From assembly GCA_903813345.2 (NCBI GenBank), contig CAIIXF020000010.1, positions 26,562,425 to 26,626,424 on the forward strand: a stretch of DNA of 64,000 nt. The letters are read 5' to 3'. The translations under genes and the position numbers were made by a program. This document shows, piece after piece, positions 6,900 through 55,826 of the stretch. The notes beneath the pieces are model-generated. The model was not told where the DNA came from. It saw only the letters and a list, made by a program, of their open reading frames with translations, and searched no databases. The stretch's first letter is position 1. Each line of letters opens with the position of its first letter. Origin of the DNA: Owenia fusiformis. Lineage: Eukaryota > Annelida > Polychaeta > Sabellida > Oweniidae.

Positions 6900-8303
6900 T
6901 TAATCTCCTTCAAGTGAACAATTGAATAGTTTCCAAAATACACCAAAATCAAACTCGAATATGACTGAATGAAGTGCACGTGTTTCCATGCCTTTGGGTC
7001 TCGTCAAATTGGACAACTTGGCCGAAGATGTAAAGTAACTTATTTTCATAAATACCTTGTAAGATGCAGCAATCCCAGAATTATCTAGCGATGAACTGAG
7101 AGATGGTGCGCTTTCAGACTCGCAGTGCACTTCATGATCTTCCATGATTGTATCTGAGATTGTGACGACACCATGCTCAGGTTTCCCATGACTCACTCGA
7201 TGGTGCCTGCTAGATTGATTCCCATATGGAGGTCTTTTGACAGATTGCATCTCCTTCGAATTGTGAAGCTTCTGATATTTAAAAGTCTCTTTCGTTTGCG
7301 GCTGGATGTTAAGATTGTTGAGATTTTTATTGTTTATTTTCGATTTATCAGGAGTTTCAGGAAATCCATTGATCAGTTTAATAACGGGGGTGTCTCCACC
7401 TTCTCTCGGTGTATCATTTGTGTCTACGCTGTGCTCACTTGCTCCACGTCTAAGCTTTTTACGTTTCGGTTTTTTACCTTTTGGGAGTTTTATTCTGCTT
7501 TGGGCGTGGGAATAATACAAAGTAAAGTTGTTAACTACGATTGGGACTGTAAAAGCGATGGTGAGTACTCCGCACCATACACACATTGACCCGATAACGT
7601 AGCCAAGGGTCTCCTCTGGGTATATGTCCCCGTAACCGACGGTCGTCATAGTGACAAGCGCCCACCAGAATCCGAGAGGAATATTTCCAAAATTGTTTGG
7701 CTCAACAATATAAATCAAACTGGCAAAAATCAGCACTCCAACGAATAGAAACATTACCATCAACATCAATTCCTTAGTGCTAACCTTGATAGTGTATGCT
7801 AGGATTTTAAAAGCAGAATAATGTTTAGCAAGTTTGAATATTCTGAGCATACGTATGATTCTCGCAGCTAGAACGGCTTTAACAGCACTTGCAGCGATGC
7901 CCCCGGTCACATCGCCGCTATTAGCCAGCACAATACTTGTATAATGGGGCAACAGGCAAAGTATGTCTATCATGTTTAAGAGATCTTTCAAAAATATCAA
8001 CTTTTTGGGGGCAAGGGCGAAGCGCAATATGACTTCAATTGTAAAAAATCCAACACAGACGTAATCTACATACTCCATGGCAGGGTGGGGTTTATATCCT
8101 GGAATGATTGGAGATTTAGCAGGTGGGCCAGAAGAATCACTGCAGCAGCATGACTGTCCTACTGACGTAGTGTACATTGTGGACGGAGTGGACGCAATCG
8201 TTGCATTGTAGTTTTCATCGACAACACGCATCAATGGATGTGTCTCCATAACGAAAACCCCAATGGACAAGACAACGAAGAACATCGATATCACAGCATA
8301 TGC
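6900..8303 (-). CDS. Shaw/Kv3-like voltage-gated K+ channel, main exon (S1 to C-terminus)
   Basis: This single exon encodes the whole membrane part of a Kv alpha subunit. The acceptor CTGTTTTCAG precedes 8303 and the first codons (AYAVISMFF) continue in phase 0 from the exon ending at 19266. In order: S1 ending METHP; an S1-S2 loop with an N-A-T glycosylation sequon and a CCC cluster; S2 (YVDYVCVGFFTIEVILRF); S3 (IDILCLLPHY); S4 (RIIRMLRIFKLAK); S5; pore helix and intact filter TMTTVGYGD; S6 (VLTIAFTVPIVVNNF); then a basic KKPKRKKLRR stretch and a low-complexity tail. Two departures from Kv3: the outermost S4 arginine is Leu, and the S6 Pro-Val-Pro bend is Thr-Val-Pro. A donor-like AAG/GTATTT at 7056 (phase 0) precedes the last 51 codons, so an alternative C-terminus is possible. 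The exon adds 467 residues; the full protein is 654 or 669 residues. It would act as a tetramer in the plasma membrane, giving depolarisation-activated K+ current. Confidence 0.93.
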   Translation of the reverse strand, partial: AYAVISMFFVVLSIGVFVMETHPLMRVVDENYNATIASTPSTMYTTSVGQSCCCSDSSGPPAKSPIIPGYKPHPAMEYVDYVCVGFFTIEVILRFALAPKKLIFLKDLLNMIDILCLLPHYTSIVLANSGDVTGGIAASAVKAVLAARIIRMLRIFKLAKHYSAFKILAYTIKVSTKELMLMVMFLFVGVLIFASLIYIVEPNNFGNIPLGFWWALVTMTTVGYGDIYPEETLGYVIGSMCVWCGVLTIAFTVPIVVNNFTLYYSHAQSRIKLPKGKKPKRKKLRRGASEHSVDTNDTPREGGDTPVIKLINGFPETPDKSKINNKNLNNLNIQPQTKETFKYQKLHNSKEMQSVKRPPYGNQSSRHHRVSHGKPEHGVVTISDTIMEDHEVHCESESAPSLSSSLDNSGIAASYKVFMKISYFTSSAKLSNLTRPKGMETRALHSVIFEFDFGVFWKLFNCSLEGD

Positions 8304-10110: not shown

Positions 10111-12660
10111 TTTTTTTTTTATTTATTTATTTTGACATACGCTTTTTTAACAGCGGCACACTATTATTAGGTGCGTCAGTATTTGTAATCTACATATATA
10201 TTCTATAAGCACTAAAAATGTTTACATAAAATACTACAGTTTTCTAGGGTTAAAAAGTGTTGCTAAAAACATCTTCACATATTTATCAAACATATAAAAA
10301 ATGTCATGCCCCCATTCCATAAAAACCTTATCACCAAGTAGTGTAAGTAACCTATCATGAATGTTCGAAGACAATAAACTGCTACTTAAAATGGGAGAAA
10401 CATATTTCTCTACATCGTTGTAAAAGTCGGACCTGGCTTTGGCAAAATGGGGACACACCATTAATCTGTGTGATAGAGTATCTCTCAAATTAAGATTACA
10501 CATTATACATATACCATCACTTTTGCCCCACTTTTCATAATTTGTCTCAAGGCAGAAATTATTCGATCTTGCTAGAAATTTCATTTTAGATCCATAAAAA
10601 TCAAGGTCATTCTTAAGGTACCTTTCGGTGCGGTTATGGGTTTTAACCTCCTTATATATTTCAAGGGAGGGGTGTTCAGCTACCCTAGTGTGGAAATTAT
10701 AAATGCTTTGGGATTGAGATATAGTTAAAAATGAGGGGTACCATTCGCTGTCATTCCGAAAAATAACATCATCTAAACCTTTATCTCTTAAAATATTCCG
10801 TGCATTTGATGCAAATTTCCAATATGATTCTTTACCGACTTTTAATAATTTTAGCAAATTCTGTAGGATTTTATGAGGGAGGGATGTAGTTGGTACATTA
10901 AAATTTAGGTAGTTCAAATAGTCAATTTGTCTTTTTTCAATCACCTCTGCTATCGGTTTCCAGCCTAAATCCCCCAATATAGATTCACTGGCGGGTTTAC
11001 TTTTAATTTGAAAAATGGCTTGGGCGGCACCATATTGAAATGAGGTAATTTTGGCAAGGCTTGACTTTGGGAGTACCCAGGTCGGGCATCCATGCAGGAT
11101 AGCAGGTGCCATCATAGAGTTGTAAATCGTACTTCCAAATTCAATGCGCTTGACATTACAATGTTTGGTTAAAGTAGAACTTAAATAATTTTTCATTTTC
11201 CTGGCCTTTTCATATAAATATTTCAGATGTGCAGTTTCTTTGAGACTTCTATTGAACATTACTCCAAGATATTTGTACTCATTTACCTCTGGCAGTCTCA
11301 AATTCCCTAATGACCATACCTTTTCCGAATCAAGTCTTTTCCCTATTATCATTATCTTAGACTTTTTTTCACTGAACTGAAATCCCCATTTAAGTCCAAA
11401 ATTATTAGTGATTGTTAACATTGACTGGAGTTCTTTCTCAGATTGACCCATTAACACAATGTCATCGGCATAAAGAAGACAGGGGATTTTTTTATCTTCA
11501 AAGGGCAGACCAAAACTGGACATTCTTAAACTGTCTTCAAGGTCTGTCATTACTATGGAAAAAAGGGTCGGGGATAGAATACAACCTTGCTTCACTCCAG
11601 ATGAGGAGTCAAACCAGTCAGTTTCATATTGTCCAAAGATGACCTTGTTTGAAGTGTTAGAGTATAGTGATTTCAAAATCCTCCAAGTTTTACCTTGGAT
11701 TCCCTTTTCCCAAAGTTTTAGAAATAGCAAATCACGATCTAAAACGTCAAATGCCTTAGAAATGTCAATAAAAGCTAAATAGGATTTGAGTTTCTTATCT
11801 TTACGAAGGCTACATAGTCCTTTAAGGGAAAAGATATGATTTTCTAATATTTTGCCTTTTTGAAATGCGCCTTGAAGGTCGCCTAAAAGATTGTTTTCAC
11901 GAAGAAAGTCCATTATCTGGTTTTCCAACAGACTCGAGAATAATTTATACATATTGGATGTAATCGTTATTCCACGATAATTATTGAAAACTTCTGGATC
12001 ACCTTCCTTATGGAGGGGTTTGACAATACCTTGTTGCCAATCAAATGGAATTTTTTCAAACATTCTGATAGCATTAAAAAGATCTAAAATAGGCTGCGAG
12101 AGAACTTCTTTACCATTTTTCAAGAATTCATTGGGAATTTGATCTATACCGACTGCTTTTCCATTTGAAAGACCAGATATATGTTTTGATAAACTTGCTA
12201 GATCAAAAGTAATATGACTGAGTGCTCTATCACTTACAATGTTATCAAGCTCAATATTATTGAGGGTGTCTGAAGCTTGATTTGGGAGGGTTTCGGGGTT
12301 TTTACTTTTAGAACCAACATTTTTCCAATATTCTTTAAGTGTTTCGTTAACTTCTTTTGGGTCACATATAATATGGTTGGGGTCATTTGGGTCTTTCATT
12401 CTAATGGGGAAATTGCTCTTTGTATTGAATTTTTTCAGCGCTTTCCAATAACTTTTTGAAGATTTCGACTTATTACGGGCGTTGTTGGTAATTATTCTAA
12501 TGTGATTCTTTATATGGTTTTCTTTAATTTTTGTTGCAACTTGATGTTTAAGATCTTGATAAATCTCCCAAAGTTCCTTAATAACAGTTGGGTCTGCTGA
12601 TTTTGACTTTTGCCAAATTCTATGAAAACGGCTGGCCTCTTTCCTATTTTTAATCAATAT
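10111..12660 (-). mobile_element. LINE (non-LTR retrotransposon), 5' truncated
   Basis: The minus-strand coding region at 10234-12657 is followed by ~120 bp of 3' UTR ending in an A-rich (TAAA)n/poly(A)-like tail at about 10111-10130. The 5' end lacks an endonuclease domain, as expected after incomplete reverse transcription. No clear target duplication was found. It lies within the intron between the channel's exons at 8303 and 19266, on the same strand as the host gene. Confidence 0.85.
10234..12657 (-). CDS. LINE reverse transcriptase ORF (807 codons, endonuclease missing)
   Basis: The frame opens just after a TGA, so the track's first codon (a TTG) is not a real start. Reverse transcriptase motifs appear in order: NYRGI (residues 226-230), IDISKAFD (297-304), GVKQGCILSP (354-363) and the catalytic LLYADDIVLM (YADD at 396-399). 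A thumb/connection region with LGDLGWKPI follows. A C-terminal CIMC...H...C zinc-knuckle-like motif lies near residue 735. The upstream ~100 residues are the linker that normally follows an AP endonuclease, which is absent. The ORF is uninterrupted, so the insertion is fairly young or has been under recent constraint, but it cannot be autonomous as it stands. The clade is not assigned. Confidence 0.9.
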   Translation of the reverse strand: MIKNRKEASRFHRIWQKSKSADPTVIKELWEIYQDLKHQVATKIKENHIKNHIRIITNNARNKSKSSKSYWKALKKFNTKSNFPIRMKDPNDPNHIICDPKEVNETLKEYWKNVGSKSKNPETLPNQASDTLNNIELDNIVSDRALSHITFDLASLSKHISGLSNGKAVGIDQIPNEFLKNGKEVLSQPILDLFNAIRMFEKIPFDWQQGIVKPLHKEGDPEVFNNYRGITITSNMYKLFSSLLENQIMDFLRENNLLGDLQGAFQKGKILENHIFSLKGLCSLRKDKKLKSYLAFIDISKAFDVLDRDLLFLKLWEKGIQGKTWRILKSLYSNTSNKVIFGQYETDWFDSSSGVKQGCILSPTLFSIVMTDLEDSLRMSSFGLPFEDKKIPCLLYADDIVLMGQSEKELQSMLTITNNFGLKWGFQFSEKKSKIMIIGKRLDSEKVWSLGNLRLPEVNEYKYLGVMFNRSLKETAHLKYLYEKARKMKNYLSSTLTKHCNVKRIEFGSTIYNSMMAPAILHGCPTWVLPKSSLAKITSFQYGAAQAIFQIKSKPASESILGDLGWKPIAEVIEKRQIDYLNYLNFNVPTTSLPHKILQNLLKLLKVGKESYWKFASNARNILRDKGLDDVIFRNDSEWYPSFLTISQSQSIYNFHTRVAEHPSLEIYKEVKTHNRTERYLKNDLDFYGSKMKFLARSNNFCLETNYEKWGKSDGICIMCNLNLRDTLSHRLMVCPHFAKARSDFYNDVEKYVSPILSSSLLSSNIHDRLLTLLGDKVFMEWGHDIFYMFDKYVKMFLATLFNPRKL

Positions 12661-12772
12661 GACGATTCAATTTGACAATTCTTACAAGTGAAAACTGTTG
12701 GAATAAAAACATGCCTGGCTTCATGTTAGCAAAACTTGAGTAAAAAGAGCAACATCATCAAATATACTATAA

Positions 12773-14920: not shown

Positions 14921-15888
14921 ATAGATTCATTGATGAAGGAAGGTTTTGACACTTTAAATGCCTTGTTAGCCATGCAACTCAGTGACATTGCTGCTCTGAA
15001 AATTAGGCAGATTGGGACTTGAGAGGGCTTTAGAATTCGCAATTGGATCGCTACACAAACCTGTCATCAAGACTCAGGATCAGGCAACACTCGGATCAGA
15101 GAGTGATAGCAAACCTGTCAAACTTAATTACAACATCAGAACTCGCAAGAGACAAAATGTTGGTTGACCTGGTGGACAAGTTAGCCAAGTCAGGTGACCT
15201 GTCAGCGGATATTTTGTCAACAGATAATGCATCAGCTAAGACTCCAGTACCTACAGAGTCTACAGGCCATAATGGTAAGAAACCACTCCTTATTCCAGAC
15301 TTTGTGACTAATGCCTATCTCCCTCAGAACGATCAAGAGGAGATATCAATGGGAAATAACTTGTTTTATCGTCCAGGCAACAAAACAGTGAAACCTCGAT
15401 TGGACAATGTTACGTTACCACAATGGGTGAGCGCGAGTTGTAGGATATTACAACAACTCATTAAGGACGGTGCTGAACTAACAGTCGTAAAGGAGTATGT
15501 ATCGCACATGATAAATGTAGGTGACCACGCACAAACCAACACGGTGACATCCACATTACTATATGAGGACGCATGCAGAAAGAAACAACATGAAAATATG
15601 CTGACATGGGGTGAAGACGACATACATCTGATGAACTTTTATTTGGTGAAGAAACCGACAACGCCTCGTGGCGCCCCCCATCAACGTGGTGACCGTTCAT
15701 CTAATGGGAACCCCACGCAAAATACGCAATCTCAGGTTAAGAACGCAAATATCCCGATATGCCGTCAATGGAATAGTGCACGAGGCTGCAGTTATGGCAG
15801 TTCGTGTAAATTCACACATGGGAAATGTGCAGAAAATAATTGTGGAGAAGCCCACCCACAATATCTTCATGCATCACTCGCCAAATAG
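14921..15888 (+). pseudogene. gag-like ORF of a DIRS-like retroelement, frameshifted N-terminus
   Basis: An open frame runs from 15034 to the TAG at 15886-15888. Before it, two other frames encode an apparent N-terminal helical segment (IDSLMKEGFDTLNALLAMQL, 14921 on) broken by a TGA at 15020 and at least one frameshift. The C-terminal quarter carries a CCCH zinc finger (CRQWNSARGCSYGSSCKFTH: C-x8-C-x5-C-x3-H) and a second Cys/His cluster, CAENNCGEAHPQYLH. CCCH fingers of this kind are familiar from gag proteins of DIRS/Ngaro-type elements. The downstream RT frame begins in the same phase after the stop. Nonfunctional as it stands. Confidence 0.7.
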
Positions 15889-15918
15889 GGACACGTCACC
15901 AGTCCTTTAACAGATAAT

Positions 15919-17237
15919 TTGGATACTTGGAGGCAGGAATTACAAGGTGATAGTGATAAAGATTTTACATTAAATGGCATTGAATTTGGTTTTCATCTAT
16001 TAGATGAAGAATTTGATTCACATAATATACAGGAAAATGATAGTGATAATTATCGTTCAGCTACCAACCCTATCGTCAAACCTAAGGTGGAAAAACAGTT
16101 AAGGGAAGAAATCCTAGAATCACGTTATATCGTAACCGTTGAAAAACCTAAGATAGTGAGTATAGCTTAGGTTCAGTGCCTAAACAAAACAGTGCAGATA
16201 TTCGCTTGATTCATGACGCTAGCCGGCCAATGGACGGCGGAGTGAACTCTATGTCTACTCCCCAATATTTCGCTTATGAAGGCTTAGACACAGCCATTAA
16301 ATACATAAAACCAGGATCTTTTATGGGGAAAGTTGACTTGAGATGGGGATATAGAGTAGTACCTACAAGCCCTAAGTGTCATCAAGCCATGGGATTAAAA
16401 TACAAATTTGGCAAAAATAAGGATTTTACTTATATGATAGACACGAGACTACCTTTCGGCAGCAATAGAAGTCCTGAAATTTTCTCTAGAATAACACGTG
16501 CAGTGGGCCGCAGGATGAAGCGCAGAGGATTTCAGGAGACTGTAGTTTACCTCGATGATTTTCTAGTGATATCAGATTCTAAGGACAAATGCAGGCAAGC
16601 AATTAACATGTTACTATCATTGTTACAGGATTTAGGCTTCATAATTAATTGGAAAAAATTGGTCCCTCCCACACAGTGTTTAACGTTTCTAGGGATCGAA
16701 ATTGACTCTGTTCAGCAATTATTAAGAATACCTGCCTCCAAGCTTTCAGAGATTAAAAGACAGTCTAGTGAAATGGAACAATGCGTCAAAAATGTCTAAG
16801 ACAATGTTGCAGCATATTATTGGGAAACTAAACTGGATCGCAAACATTTTTAGGGCAGCCAGGCCCTTGCTACGCAGCCTTATTGACTCATGCAAACAAC
16901 TAAAGCGTCCCTCGCATAGGACACGTTTAAATGCGCAAACACGAAAGGACCTAGCTGCTTGGTCTAAATTTCTGCAAAGCGACCGCTTCAATGGCGTGAA
17001 TTACATACTAGATAAGTCACAGCCCGACGTCACTTTCTGCACAGATGCATGCGATGATGGTGCTGCAGCTTGGCACTATAATAAAAACCTCCTACCGGAG
17101 TCACGCACTGACTGGATATATATTAATTGGGAGATGGACCTTCCTCAACATAGATCTAGTGATATAAATATCAAAGAGCTTCTAGCCATAAAATTGGCAG
17201 TAGATAGGTGGAGCCACCTATGGTGCGATAATATCGG
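15919..17237 (+). pseudogene. DIRS-like reverse transcriptase / RNase H, frameshifted and 3' truncated
   Basis: Three consecutive frames make one degraded protein. The first (to 16170) holds the pre-RT region ending KQLREEILESRYIV. A shift near 16166 leads into the RT palm (16176-16799) with LIHDASRP, the substrate block LPFGSNRSPEIFSRI, catalytic VYLDDFLVIS, and LTFLGIEIDS. A second shift near 16790 leads to the connection (IIGKLNWIANIFRAARP) and RNase H (TDACDDGAAAWHY, then INIKELLAIKLAVDRW). The order and YLDD/FLGIEID wording fit the DIRS/Ngaro branch of gypsy-like RTs. The coding stops abruptly at about 17237, where the second palindromic hairpin begins. The methylase and tyrosine recombinase expected downstream are missing. 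Confidence 0.8.
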
Positions 17238-17239
17238 GA

Positions 17240-17322
17240 ATATCGGGAATATCCTGTCCACTGACTTGTTCCCTCGGCCTGCAGCCTCGGGAACATCAGT
17301 GGACAGGATATTCCCTTGAGGA
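17240..17322. repeat. palindromic hairpin, copy 2
   Basis: Almost identical to 14577-14681 and in the same orientation (ATATCCTGTCCACTGACTTG against ATATCCTGTCCACCGACTTG). The outer part of the left arm is missing where it abuts the truncated RNase H coding. Confidence 0.9.
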
Positions 17323-19265: not shown

Positions 19266-19490
19266 CTTAGCAGCTTTTGATGAACCCGGATCCTCCATGA
19301 AACGCCATGCTTTTCTTCGGAGCATACGCCAATAAGACTCGCCCTTCTCCCAGGCATATTCGTCGTGAAAATCAAACAGAAAATTGTCATCTAGTGCGGC
19401 AAGTGTCTCCTTATGGTCCGTAAATTTGCTATATGAGACCCAACAGCATGGTTCGATGTCTAACTCGTTCAGTCCCCAGAAGCTCATTTC
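19266..19490 (-). CDS. Shaw/Kv3-like K+ channel, shared T1 exon
   Basis: A minus-strand exon with acceptor TTTTGTAG before 19490 and donor AAG/GTACTT after 19266, both in phase 0; 75 residues. It starts EMSFWGLNELDIEPCCW, the end of the T1 tetramerisation domain. The Cys pair is the distal part of the H-x5-C-x20-CC zinc signature of non-Shaker T1 domains; the His and first Cys come from either first exon. It continues into the T1-S1 linker with WRFMEDPGSSKAAK, the usual Kv phrase just before S1. It is used with both alternative first exons by inference from phase and sequence. Neighbouring exons lie about 11 kb away on each side. Confidence 0.92.
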
Positions 19491-28600: not shown

Positions 28601-30408
28601 GGTTCTTTAAAATTTCTGCGTCTCAGTTTTGCTTTATTTCAAAATGAAATACATATTGAAAATATGTAGCATTTGAATAGATATGTCACCAATATGGGGA
28701 AAATTTTGAATACTCGATTTTTCGACTTTGAATTTCGAATGATGAGTCGGTTACTGAGCCTGAGTTTACATCTAGCGAAAATGAATTGTCTGTTGCTCAT
28801 TCGAAACACCGATGTTGAAATGAACTATATTTCTATCCATGTACACTCCCCTCCATCAGTTCCGCAACACAAATACCCCCATTGAAATACGTTTTAAAGC
28901 CTCCTTATGTTTGAATTTCTATTTGCACAATCTGTAAAGAAATAACTACTTTTAGGCCTGGAAATATAAGTTCCAAACCCTCCAATTTTTCTATTTTTTC
29001 ACCATTTACAAAGGGTCGGATATTGATGACAAATCTAATTGTTGTTTTTTTGAAAATCGACATTACCATGTAAACCAATGGGAAATGGTAGGTTTGCCGC
29101 AAGTCATATGACGGAATATCCATCCATCCAAGTTTTCGCAAAAAACTCCTCCCATTGAAATAACACAAGAGGCGAGATATGATTTTCAAAAATGACTTTG
29201 AGGCTCTGTTTCTTTATTTTAAAAAAGTTCAATTTTCTATATTATGAATTCTTTACTGAATAGAAATCTGATTTGCCCCGAACCAACCATATTCCATTGC
29301 TTTGTCGATTCAAAAAATTGCCAAACTTATGGTGGGATGTGTAATTTTATTCATGGATCAAATATATTTTCATTGTAAGGTTACATTGAATTACATTTGT
29401 GTTGATTTTATTGCACAGTTTCAATGTCAACCCCAACCCAAAATGCGCAAACTCAAACACAGGCTTCCTTATTCTGCGCGCAGAGTCTAGTTATAATAAA
29501 CTACCGAAGACGAAGCTCTCTTTTAAGAAGTGAAGTCGAACGAATGCAAAGGGTAAGGCTTCCTCAGAGGAACAGTTTTTTCAGAAACATTTCAGAAAAA
29601 CCCACGTTTGGTTAAATAGAGAATATGGAACCAATATCCCACGTGGAGCGTGAATGAAAAATAATAACATACTGTACGAATGGCGTACTATAGAAAGGCG
29701 TGGCATTTAACAATAGTAGTTAGATTCATTTCAATGATCGCATCCATCGAGATGATCATCTCACTCAAACTAAAACCACTTATTATATTTCTCTGATCGA
29801 TGCAATACAAACATTTTTCACAATTAACGTCTATAATTTACAAAATGTTAGCTATTAATTAGCATTTGAGAAAACTATCACGTTTTATGAGACGGTCGCC
29901 TGTAAAGCATAATATATTGGCGCAATTAATGAAAATACATTTGTATTGACATAATTATCTTTTATAACAATTCTAGAATTGGATTGGAATTATTTGAGAT
30001 TTGATTTGTTGCAATTTGTTAATCAGTTACGTGCGTCGATAGCCACATCTTTACACATGACAAAATTCTTGCGAATATCACAAAATCATTGACAAACGAT
30101 ATCGAGATCAAGTGATGCAGTTATTGGGTATCGCGAGTTGGGTTAACGAGTATTGGACGCATTTGCAAGGGAAATGACTAGTAAGTAAAGTATGGGTTTT
30201 AAGTGACAAAATAGTTTAAAATTATCTGAGTAAAATCAATCGAAAGTATCTTACATACTCATCAGCTTATTTTGGACCTCACACGAGACGCAAGAGAATT
30301 GACAATTTCAACGTATAATCAATCTATCTTGGTGCGGATGTTGAAATCAGTGCATAGTACCACATACATTATGATATACTGATATAATCAAGATAAAATG
30401 ATGGCTAC
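28601..30408. other. intronic stretch
   Basis: No gene. At 29487-29560 is a fragment (GACGAAGCTCTCTTTTAAGA) of the repeat found inverted inside the MITE at 26265-26751. The remainder is unrecognised AT-rich DNA. Confidence 0.4.
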
Positions 30409-30789
30409 CGTTCGAAAGCTATTCCCACAGATGTTCTGGTCCATATGCAGTTCCTCCGTTCTATAGAAATCTAGAATCGATTGGAAGGCAATCGGATGCC
30501 GATCAAAGAAATATTCATTTGTTGACGGATCATAACTTTCATCTGACTTGAGCAAGTTAGCAAGTAGAGAGAGTCTTGTGCCGGGCAATCTTTCTAGAGT
30601 GGACACAAACACTTCACTCCGCACTCCCCCTACATTGATGATCAGTTTTTCATCTATATTTGATCTATCCAATGACATGATGTTTTTCTCTCGTTCTTTA
30701 GCTTGTTTGGGCACTTTAGTTTGTCTAACATTTTGCGTAATACTAGTGTCCCTTCCAAACGTTGTGGACGCAGCTATTGCCCCTATCAT
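30409..30789 (-). CDS. Shaw/Kv3-like K+ channel, alternative first exon B (T1 domain)
   Basis: The minus-strand first exon starts at an ATG at 30789 and ends at donor ACG/GTAGCC (30409), phase 0; 127 residues. After a ~45-residue polar N-terminus (a second Met lies about 40 residues in) comes the T1 start: IINVGG, STLERLPGTRLSLL, ESYDP, EYFFDRHP, ILDFYRTEELH, DQNICGNSFRT. H-x5-C at the end supplies half of the zinc signature completed by the exon at 19266-19490. About 55 of 80 aligned T1 residues match exon A at 33485-33820. The upstream open frame begins with a TTG, which I do not take as the start. The final codon and phase match exon A, so both can splice to the same acceptor. Confidence 0.88.
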
Positions 30790-33484
30790 ATTAATTTTCA
30801 ATGGTATTTATGAACTTCTTACATTACCATCATTTAAGATGTATCATTTAATCTGAAGGCTTATACTTCGTCATCAATCCGATTACTTGTATTTTCTTAA
30901 CACAAGATTAGCGCCAAGATAAGTTAGTATCGCTAGCTTCCATTGTTCATCATTCCATCCAGCATCGCCGCAAATAGCTCAACTGCTGTTAGCTGTACCT
31001 ACATTGTGTAACATCCACGTGTCACCAGGGATACATGAATACACCAGCCTGTCAATAAATTATAGCTTCACTTTTTCCTTATACATAATTTAAGAGAAAA
31101 TGTAATCGTTTTTAAATGAATAACCTGGTAACATTGAGAAATTCTGAATTAGATAAAAAATATATTTTTACTCCGTTGTGATGGTATAATTAGATGAGTA
31201 AGAAAGAACGGAATGTAACGACGTCATATGCTCACTGATATGGCAAGGTGGACGAGTGGGGCTGCGTTAATTTACAATAGATTGTTGTTCAGATTTATTC
31301 AGAGATTAATGATTGTGGTTACTTGTGGAAAAAGTGTTTACGTATTGTCATGCTAACTTTACACATTTCTCATAATGTTCATATGCATCGTAGCTTACAG
31401 AATGTACTATATCTTAAATGTCTTGATTTGGAAAACCTAACATTTCATTTCATTTTACAATCGCCTATATTTAGGCTATACTGCTTGAAATTACTGAAAA
31501 TAATGAATTTATTCATGGGATTAAAAGGCATCGCCTATATGGCTTTACCGATATAAATAATTAAATACTATAAAATAGATTGTCACGACGCGTATATTTC
31601 AGACTGAATTGCCTGAAACGTTCGTTGTTGTCTGGGCATATATTTTGCTATGGCTACAGCGAATTCATAACTAATGGTTTATTCTTTGAAAACAAAAACA
31701 ACACTAGTTTGAAAACAATACTGGTGTGTAGAATTACTACCCTTACAATTAGAGAGTAAAATGTAGTCAAAGTACTATGCCTTGAATATACATTATAAAT
31801 TGCAGACTAAAATCAAAGTATGACACAATGAAAACAGCACATAATATATCAAAATATTGTGACGGCGCTTAAAAAGTAATTTTGACGGAGTTCAGATTAA
31901 TTTTGACGACGTTTAAAATTCTTAACATCTATCCATTCAGACCATGTTGCCATCATCGTGAGAAATTATGAAGACAGAACGATACGATGAGTATCAGAAT
32001 GTGTTGCCACAAATGTTTAACAACTTTCTGATGCTTACATGGTGATCAAGGCCACGGCGACATTGTTGCATTTATTGCGCGCATTGATTTTTAGGTCTGT
32101 AAACAAACGTGGGATTTATATATGGGGACATCGATTCAGACTCTTTGAACGGAGCTTTTGTGGCAATGTAACAGGTACTTTGTTATAAATAAATGGCGGA
32201 AGCCCAGAATTAAAATATGAACCTATCTTGTTGTACAGATGAACATCTTTTTTATTTTTATTGACCGACTGACATGCGTCACGCCATATCATCGTCGCTG
32301 TCATCATGGTCAAATGATATTTATTGACTGGTCGTTAACAGAAACAAAATACGGCATATCAAAATGTTTTAGACATTTCTAATAACATATTAATGGAATG
32401 TACGAAGAAATCGCTGGTGTAGAAAAACATTTATTATTTTTGTTATAAGCTAAATTAAAATAATTTTCTACAAACGTTTCTGATTGCGCTTTGACCGTTC
32501 CAAGTCTTAAACGCAACAAGAACATAAAGAACATATATATTTCCCGTCTTTCCTCGATTTTACTGTTTACATTGCATATACCATATGGAATTAAAAGAGA
32601 GACAAATGTCTGTCTGACATTGTATTTATTTCTTCAAAAGGCCGTAGCCAGGAGGATGGGGGGGGGGGTTCGAGCCATTTTTTGGCCAAATTTGTAGAAT
32701 GCAAGCTCCCTGGGGAATTTTTAGAAATTGAACGCCCCTTGGCAAACGCTGGCTACAGGCCTGTTCAATGTAACCTATTTGTACCATGCTCAGAGTTTGA
32801 GGTGGAAAATAATTTGCAACTTTATTAATTATGTAATACATATGAGAATGATCTTTGATTATGAAAGAATGGAAAGAATTTAGCACTAATTCTATAAAAA
32901 TGTTGTGACGGCGTTGCGACTCTCGAGCTACAAATGACGCGAGTTTCTCATTTCGTGACATGTTTTTTCGCATCGAGCAGCTCAAGTAACACATCATATT
33001 GTTCGACATTTCACCTATGCAATAGTAGATCGAATTTTGATACTGAAAAAGATTCATTAACAAAAGTGAAGTATCAGTTGTAAGGACACGGCATGTTCTA
33101 GTCGATTTTATCATTTTTTGAGTCTGAAATTTCACGGTCAAACATCACAATAGAAAGTCCATTTCAAGATGGGACACATTCGAGGAGACTTGAGTAACGA
33201 CCAGACAACCAAATATAGTGGAAGAACATTAACTCTACATATTTAGCATGCCCCTTACTCTCTCGATATTTGGACCCCTGGGTCACCTTCCCGGGGTCAC
33301 CTTGTACACACTCCTTCGCGATCATGACATCATTCTACTGGGCCATATGAACCATGCACAGTTTGTACATTACGACGAAGCATATAATTTCTGAATTGCA
33401 AAATCATTGAAACTTCTACTGAGAAACGAAATTAAATCAGGCAAAAAACGTCAGAACTACGAGATAATCACAAAATTAATTTAC
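30790..33484. other. stretch between the two alternative first exons
   Basis: It should hold the promoter of first exon B (upstream of 30789 on the minus strand), but no TATA box or initiator is convincing. A small G/C-rich MITE lies at 32639-32762. No other gene. Confidence 0.4.
32639..32762. mobile_element. short G-rich MITE
   Basis: AGGCCGTAGCCAGG on the left pairs with CTGGCTACAGGCCT on the right. The interior begins with a run of G followed by TTCGAGCC. Short repeats of this GTAGCCAGG style are common in marine invertebrate genomes (general knowledge). Confidence 0.7.
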
Positions 33485-33820
33485 CGTTTTCATGACGTTG
33501 CCGCATATATTCTGATCTACATGTAGCTCTTCAGATCTATAATATTGCAAAATGGCGGCAAACGCTGCAGGGTGGCGATCAAAATAATACTCTCTAGTCA
33601 ACGGATCATAACTCTCGTCAGCCTCAAGGTTTTGTGCCAGGAGAGAAAGTCTGGTATTTGGGAGGCGTTCCAATGTAGATACAAAAGTCTCAAATTTTTG
33701 ACCCCCGACATTGATTACCACCCGCTTGTCTAATGATGTTTCCAGCAGTTTATGAAGTTCTTTATGGTGAGTGTCCTCCATTATGAGAGTACTCCCAGAC
33801 TGGTGGTGTTTAACAGTCAT
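33485..33820 (-). CDS. Shaw/Kv3-like K+ channel, alternative first exon A (T1 domain)
   Basis: A minus-strand first exon from ATG at 33820 to donor ACG/GTAAAT at 33485, phase 0; 112 residues. An in-frame TAA two codons upstream of the ATG supports this start. After ~32 polar residues come VVINVGG, STLERLPNTRLSLL, ESYDP, EYYFDRHP, ILQYYRSEELH and DQNICGNVMKT. The H-x5-C of the zinc signature is present. Joined to 19266-19490 the spacing to the Cys pair is exactly x20, as in the family. The N-terminus differs from exon B, so the isoforms would differ both in cytoplasmic N-terminus and in the assembly face of T1. Confidence 0.9.
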
Positions 33821-55005: not shown

Positions 55006-55431
55006 GCTACTCCGTGGAGTTGCTGTTTTTTCTAGTTTGTTTAGAAATCTTAGTGGTTCCTGTTAGGTCCTGGTGGTGCCATAATACCCAGGCCCTTTTG
55101 GTTTCTTTGAAGCCATTTAGATTTCCCAAGAATGCCCTGACAATGTTTTGATAGTCCGCAATAATTTTCTAGTAGCCCTTAAGTGATTCACTTGTATGCT
55201 GCAGGGCATCATGTGTTACTTTAGTACTCAATAATGGTGCTCTAAGAGTTGTTCCTTGTAAGTCTTGAAGTTTTGACAACTTGTCCAATCCCTAACAGAA
55301 TAGTCACTAGTGTTCAATAAGTTGTCAAAGCGTAGGTGCTAATGTTTTAAGCATGCAGTAGACTGTTAAAGTGTATGTGATTTGTCAAGTATACAATGGG
55401 TTATTCATAATAATATGGATGGTGTTTTTAG

Positions 55432-55588
55432 GTGGATCCAGGCTTGCATAAATGAGCAGCTCCCAGCAACTACAGAGCTAGAAGAGGGACTCAGAAATGG
55501 AGTTGCCCTGGCTAAGCTCGGTCATTTCTTCTCCAAACAAACTGTCCCTTTCAAAAAGATCTATGATCCCGACCAGAAGAAATATGAG
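55432..55588 (+). CDS. IQGAP, coding exon 3 (CH domain)
   Basis: Acceptor TTTTTAG, donor GAG/GTATGT, 157 bp. It encodes VWIQACINEQLPATTELEEG, then LRNGVALAKLGHFF, the first half of the calponin-homology domain that binds F-actin. Residues about 48-100 of the protein. Confidence 0.95.
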
Positions 55589-55826
55589 GTATGTAAAGTC
55601 AACTATACATGTATTTTAGAGTACCCCTATATGTACTTATTTCCTAATGGAAAATAATATTATCATCTTATGTTTTGCCCATACAAATATTTTCGGCTCC
55701 TTAAAGTATATGCTATTGTTCACACTGTGCTTACTATTTTTTTAAAAATTTGAATTTCTATTTGAATTCCAACTACATTTTAATGAATTGTGATTTTCTT
55801 AAATGGTATTGTTTTCTGATTTCTAG
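55589..55826 (+). other. IQGAP intron 3
   Basis: Short intron of 238 bp; nothing notable. Confidence 0.8.

Follow-up and report, generated by a model that had tools for sequence, protein, structure and literature searches.

Two probable alternative first exons carrying homologous T1 segments in a divergent Kv3/Shaw-like channel gene of Owenia fusiformis

In the annelid Owenia fusiformis, we describe a locus that is likely to be a divergent Kv3/Shaw-like gene in which two alternative first coding exons, A and B, lie in tandem. That both exons feed one channel body is well supported by the anatomy of the locus, by homology, by the signature of selection and by a search of the genome. The T1 domain is usually regarded as an invariant part that labels a Kv subunit. 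The new aspect of this gene is that its alternative first exons carry homologous and, as it appears, anciently duplicated parts of T1. Probably, the same pore can be built with either front end, and the choice would govern assembly and perhaps the speed of channel closing.

RESULTS

All positions refer to the window, that is, the whole stretch of 64,000 nucleotides that was analyzed; it has an N content of 0 and belongs to an assembly of 498 Mb in 525 contigs. On the minus strand, the gene reads 5' to 3' from exon A through exon B and exon 2 to the body exon (Table 1), with distances of 14.0 kb from A to exon 2, 10.9 kb from B to exon 2 and 11.0 kb from exon 2 to the body. The initial annotation had proposed two first exons, each closing in phase 0 with a GT donor, and we recovered them with the same coordinates, frames, phases and donors. 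Exons A and B have the features by which alternative first coding exons are recognized: each possesses its own ATG, an in-frame stop upstream by one codon (A) or six codons (B), and a phase-0 donor that is compatible with one common acceptor, that of exon 2. The acceptors of exon 2 and of the body exon have 15 and 14 pyrimidines, respectively, among 20 positions. All three donors are middling by matrix score, in that 3.7%, 8.4% and 7.6% of the minus-strand GTs in the window do as well as the donors of A, B and exon 2, respectively. The C-terminal tail of the body exon runs to a stop, and additional 3' exons are conceivable.

Table 1. Positions in the window of the features of the channel gene
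Feature	Position	Strand	Description
Alternative first coding exon A	33485..33820	minus	336 nt; 31-aa arm + 81 aa T1
Exon A T1 coverage	BTB_2 positions 1-77 of 94	minus	profile match
Isoform A N-terminal arm	33728..33820	minus	charged, His-rich, not ball-like
Exon A donor GT	33483..33484	minus	ACG/GTAAAT
Alternative first coding exon B	30409..30789	minus	381 nt; 46-aa arm + 81 aa T1
Exon B T1 coverage	BTB_2 positions 2-78 of 94	minus	profile match
Isoform B N-terminal arm	30652..30789	minus	candidate N-type inactivation ball
Exon B donor GT	30407..30408	minus	ACG/GTAGCC; weaker than donor of A
Shared exon 2	19266..19490	minus	T1 end with zinc-motif CC, then T1-S1 linker; phase 0 at both ends
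Shared body exon	6900..8303	minus	S1-S6, TVGYG filter, S6 motif TVP, open C-tail to stop

From this layout, we infer that A and B are transcribed as mutually exclusive first exons from separate promoters. A promoter lying 5' of A would give rise to a transcript composed of A, exon 2 and the body, while a promoter between A and B would yield B, exon 2 and the body. Each first exon would contribute its own N-terminal arm along with the initial ~80% of T1, in which the His and one Cys of the zinc site lie. From the common exon 2 would come the other two Cys, the final helix of T1 and the linker, and from the exon after it the pore. Because A and B each open the coding sequence with an ATG of their own, the choice between them is probably made by promoter and not by splicing alone. 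Splicing of A into B as an internal exon was considered and rejected: the interval 30850-30560 holds one phase-0 AG, at 30687, with 5 pyrimidines among 20 positions, far fewer than the 15 and 14 of the exon 2 and body acceptors.

The encoded proteins have the features of a Kv channel alpha subunit. Taken alone, the exons score 73.3 bits (A) and 71.2 bits (B) against BTB_2, each above the cut-off of 21.4 bits; once they are joined to exon 2, the scores rise to 90.7 bits (A) and 91.8 bits (B) and the domain end is reached. The isoform made of A and the body gives an Ion_trans score of 135.3 bits and carries the K+ filter TVGYGD. When A plus exon 2 and B plus exon 2 were aligned with the T1 domains of Kv3.1 and Aplysia Shaw, the alignment was free of gaps at the junction. 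The motif HX5CX20CC is restored across both junctions, with H and the first C coming from A or B and CC from exon 2, and the zinc half-site H-X5-C is identical in the two first exons. According to one study, this motif is conserved in Kv2, Kv3 and Kv4 and has no counterpart in Kv1 (PMC9159280); both products thus have a T1 of the Kv2/3/4, non-Shaker type. In Kv3.1, the zinc is coordinated by H77 and C104/C105, and helix alpha6 touches the S4/S5 linker and S6, as described in PMC9287412. Our alignment maps alpha6 to the shared exon 2, so a swap of first exons would alter T1 before alpha6 and leave the gating contact common to both isoforms.

The best PDB matches of both T1 isoforms and of the whole protein are human Kv3.1 (7pqt) and the Aplysia Shaw T1 (3kvt). 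S6 carries TVP rather than PVP, Thr having replaced the first proline of PXP. TVP also occurs in seven paralogues. A tree of 25 bodies (the channel body, Kv3.1 and 23 of the 29 other body matches listed from the genome) unites these seven with the channel body at 84/74. Kv3.1 and the Shaw of this genome cluster elsewhere in that tree, with its Shab and others (95/94), which leaves the Shaw/Kv3 affinity suggested by the PDB matches tentative. Among the other paralogues, one has TIP and three have AIP at this site. The eight TVP paralogues may constitute an expanded channel group with an altered gating hinge. Within that group, one tandem paralogue (C12:3586600-3587500 and C12:3584050-3585100) is interrupted by a TAA in the T1 match and by a TGA in the match to the body and is possibly a recent pseudogene; its neighbor at C12:3572-3574 kb has no flagged stops. 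In silent mammalian subunits, the second proline of the S6 PXP is missing (PMC3440756). We rejected the idea of a silent, KvS-like subunit here, given that the second proline is kept and only the first is replaced.

A single downstream body is central to the proposed arrangement, and the initial annotation had named both a single shared exon and one channel body. In the window, tblastn with exon 2 hit the exon and, beyond it, only three places at the level of chance (best E 0.14). Genome-wide, we found no second copy of exon 2, the next best being 40% identical among the matches listed, and no second copy of the body, the next best being 51% identical, again among the matches listed. Both statements were borne out to this extent. 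In addition, each of at least 42 BTB_2 matches was assigned to the nearest downstream body on the same strand (at least 30 body matches) within 100 kb. Among at least 26 loci with T1 and pore, this locus is the only one with two T1 exons; the other 25 receive one each. At least four body matches lack a T1, namely C4:20713680, two on C5, and C1:44093961; the first is the second piece of a neighboring match, and the two on C5 comprise 48-49 residues. Conversely, at least 15 BTB_2 matches have no body nearby, including the one on C238, which sits at the edge of a 25-kb contig.

These data bear on the alternative that A and B belong to two separate genes, with one of them serving another body that lies outside the window or is absent from the assembly. 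In its favor, the C1 body that has no T1 exon in the assembly indicates that gaps exist. However, that body, a TVP paralogue, is preceded by 9.9 kb of which 4,000 positions are N, and it groups inside other paralogues, the closest other exon 2 and body are as distant as given above, and no exon 2 copy lies between A and B in the window by tblastn. We therefore regard two separate genes as highly improbable. The same tblastn search led us to reject the idea that the stretch between A and B holds what is left of a duplicated whole gene, and the 4,000 N beside the C1 body led us to reject C1:44093961 as a possible partner. The C1 TVP body (C1:44094500-44104400) and the bodyless T1 exon on C238 (C238:1-9900) are possibly two pieces of one gene.

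A and B are identical at 55 of the 81 residues of the T1 core (68%), in line with the figure of about 55 of 80 that had been noted before; BLAST gives 61% identity over 95 residues. Identity by codon position is 68% (first), 81% (second) and 31% (third). The estimate of dN is 0.28 by NG86 and 0.24 by maximum likelihood, and dS is saturated (undefined and 15). Since the protein matches at 55 of 81 residues while third positions are only 31% identical, both exons have probably been maintained by selection, which agrees with the original proposal. A and B were sisters in each of two T1 trees: 98/97, with end branches of 0.27 and 0.21, in the tree for which two rows had been completed by hand, and 91/78, with end branches of 0.33 and 0.21, in the tree without hand additions, where support falls below the tool's star. 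Both trees comprise 21 N-terminal parts: those of A and B, three PDB entries, and 16 taken from the 40 further BTB_2 matches listed. The 16 were drawn for the most part from the higher-scoring matches, though C6:17008051, C5:18063738 and two on C494 stayed outside while each outscores the weakest row used. Among 19 other T1 domains compared, the closest has 51% identity to A and 53% to B, as against 68% between A and B.

The sister position of A and B along with the constraint on the protein points to an old duplication within the gene: most likely, exon 1 was duplicated long ago inside the channel gene, and both copies have stayed constrained. An alternative is that one of the two is a relic, an old duplicate that has lost its transcription. 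The weaker donor of B would fit such a history, but the frames of A and B are both open, the protein is conserved while third positions are near random, and the end branches are of similar length in either tree. We consider a relic quite unlikely. When 4.5-kb regions around A and B were compared by blastn on the plus strand, one coding stretch was recovered (86 bp, 70%, E 3e-5) together with eleven weaker hits, each 13-23 bp long (E 0.06-0.7), and clearly conserved flanks, whether promoter or intron, were not found in this plus-strand comparison. A non-coding similarity of 32 bp links 32882-32913 with 31836-31867 on the minus strand (81%, E 0.005), downstream of A and upstream of B; it might stem from a dispersed repeat or from an element in common. 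In the paralogue C12_256, an intron lies three bases from the same T1 site behind a single first exon, judging by its splice signals.

The initial annotation had described the switch as a swap of T1. The T1 part does differ between the isoforms, but the N-terminal arm is replaced as well, and it is ball-like in B only. The first 12 residues of the B arm are uncharged and mostly hydrophobic, with a mean hydropathy of 1.46 over residues 2-11, and are followed by a net charge of +4; by the same measures, the A arm has 3 uncharged residues, a hydropathy of -1.30 and a net charge of -2. Among A and the 14 genome arms scored, the tip of the B arm has the highest hydropathy, and it ranks next to the Shaker B control. 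The arms scored were 14 of 16 from paralogues, those of C4_2071 (open to the edge of its stretch) and of the Shab-like C1_709 being left out. Other arms show parts of the pattern. C12_3587 has a longer uncharged start (14 residues) followed by a net charge of -3, and C238 begins with a hydrophobic stretch followed by +2. The arm of C12_146 is more positive than that of B, at +8, without a hydrophobic tip, and the arm of C12_256 is Met only. If B is translated from its second Met, the ball is lost. Matches in the PDB to the A or B arm alone were absent at E up to 10, a search in which such short queries are insensitive.

As a general rule, an effective ball peptide is hydrophobic and positively charged, according to one study, which also describes conserved negative charges in Kv1 balls (PMC3634772); the rule is consequently not a strict one. 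A second source reports that the plug of Shaker touches I470, P475 and V478 (PMC12460158). By our own alignment numbering, the S6 residues of the body at these positions are I, P and V. Based on the composition of the arms, we infer that isoform B would undergo fast inactivation through an N-terminal ball and that isoform A would not.

These findings allow an explanation of the exon pair as a switch of inactivation or regulation, in which the functional difference lies in the arms, with a ball in B and none in A, and the two T1 parts can replace each other, having diverged under relaxed but real constraint. The opposite character of the two arms and the general rule for balls speak for it, as does the Drosophila Shaker gene, whose alternative splicing yields inactivation variants (PMC3519636). 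On the other hand, 15 of the 292 open ATG frames in the window, B included, pass a loose filter for the ball-like pattern, the arms of C12_3587 and C238 are themselves partly ball-like, and negative charges are conserved in Kv1 balls. Furthermore, the T1 part would have needed no duplication had the arm alone mattered. We hold this explanation as a tentative one, with the odds somewhat against it.

The other explanation concerns the faces of T1. The initial annotation had suggested two assembly classes that share one pore; in such a scheme, A would assemble with A (and some partners) and B with B (and others). T1 controls subfamily-selective assembly, according to two studies (PMC9159280, PMC3519636). 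Of the 26 differences between A and B, four change the charge, and two of these are full and reciprocal reversals from A to B, K1 to E and E35 to K. The first reversal sits at the N-terminal end and the second in the alpha3-beta3 loop, segments that correspond to those of an intersubunit salt bridge between R31/R32 and D74/D75 in the T1 pentamer of Kv2.1, as reported in PMC9159280. In those segments, the reversals would favor like-with-like pairing. Position 1 aligns with R31 of Kv2.1, and position 35 lies three residues before D74 in a gapped loop alignment, which makes this mapping of the salt bridge uncertain. In addition, B outscores A against the Kv2.1 T1 (98.1 vs 82.3 bits), and with Kv3.1 and Shaw as targets their scores are similar.

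Against separate classes stand the zinc half-site that A and B have in common and their 68% identity, above that to any of the 19 other T1 domains, which together suggest compatible variants rather than two classes. While the two first exons and the one body of the proposed isoform switch stood up to analysis, the two assembly classes are a conjecture, which we see as unlikely. We think that mixing of A and B is likelier than exclusion on the basis of the same identity and zinc site. The exon swap may serve to tune subunit assembly. A more specific proposal is that A/A and B/B sort themselves through K1/E35 versus E1/K35, with the promoter making the choice and each class being tied to its own mode of inactivation. 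We rate this as rather improbable. If self-sorting and a ball restricted to B were both true, one neuron could carry two non-mixing currents from one pore-coding sequence.

DISCUSSION

The Owenia gene resembles Shaw/Kv3 (KCNC) genes in having a T1 with HX5CX20CC, six transmembrane segments and a K+ filter. It departs from them in the intron that interrupts T1 inside the zinc motif, in its two alternative first exons, and in the TVP of S6 where they have PVP. In Shaker, the variable N-terminus precedes T1 and T1 itself is common, whereas the Owenia gene swaps most of T1 too, with exons that are homologous duplicates. The Drosophila gene offers a parallel in that alternative splicing of one channel gene leads there to distinct inactivation, as described in PMC3519636. 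Mutually exclusive tandem duplicated exons provide homologous exons for one position in the protein, according to a further source (PMC9741552). A and B differ from those in being first exons, each with a start codon of its own. A common channel body with alternative N-termini is also known from KCNH2, in the form of hERG1a and hERG1b. Both there and in Kv-beta1, the alternative N-termini are not known to be related to each other, whereas those of the Owenia gene are paralogous parts of an assembly domain. The resemblance to Kv-beta1 lies in N-terminal variants on a common subunit body, as given in PMC7239824. Among the open-licence PubMed Central papers listed, judged by title and the opening lines of the abstract, we recognized no Kv gene with two T1-coding first exons.

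Such a gene would have value beyond its own biology. Two conserved assembly faces, combined with one and the same set of gating helix, voltage sensor and pore, would amount to a natural experiment. With the two isoforms that nature provides, one could test what T1 contributes to assembly and to gating.

ADDITIONAL OBSERVATIONS

The intron between exon 2 and the body contains an open reverse-transcriptase frame of 810 aa at 10237-12666 on the minus strand, the strand of the channel gene (RVT_1, 117.5 bits). The same intron holds three frames at 15034-17316 on the plus strand, one with a CCCH zinc finger, one with RVT_1 and an adjoining one that has no match in Pfam; these pieces resemble a second retroelement, oriented opposite to the channel gene. 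Finally, upstream of the channel gene, an exon with a calponin-homology domain (CH, 30 bits) lies at 55370-55654 on the plus strand and may be IQGAP-like.
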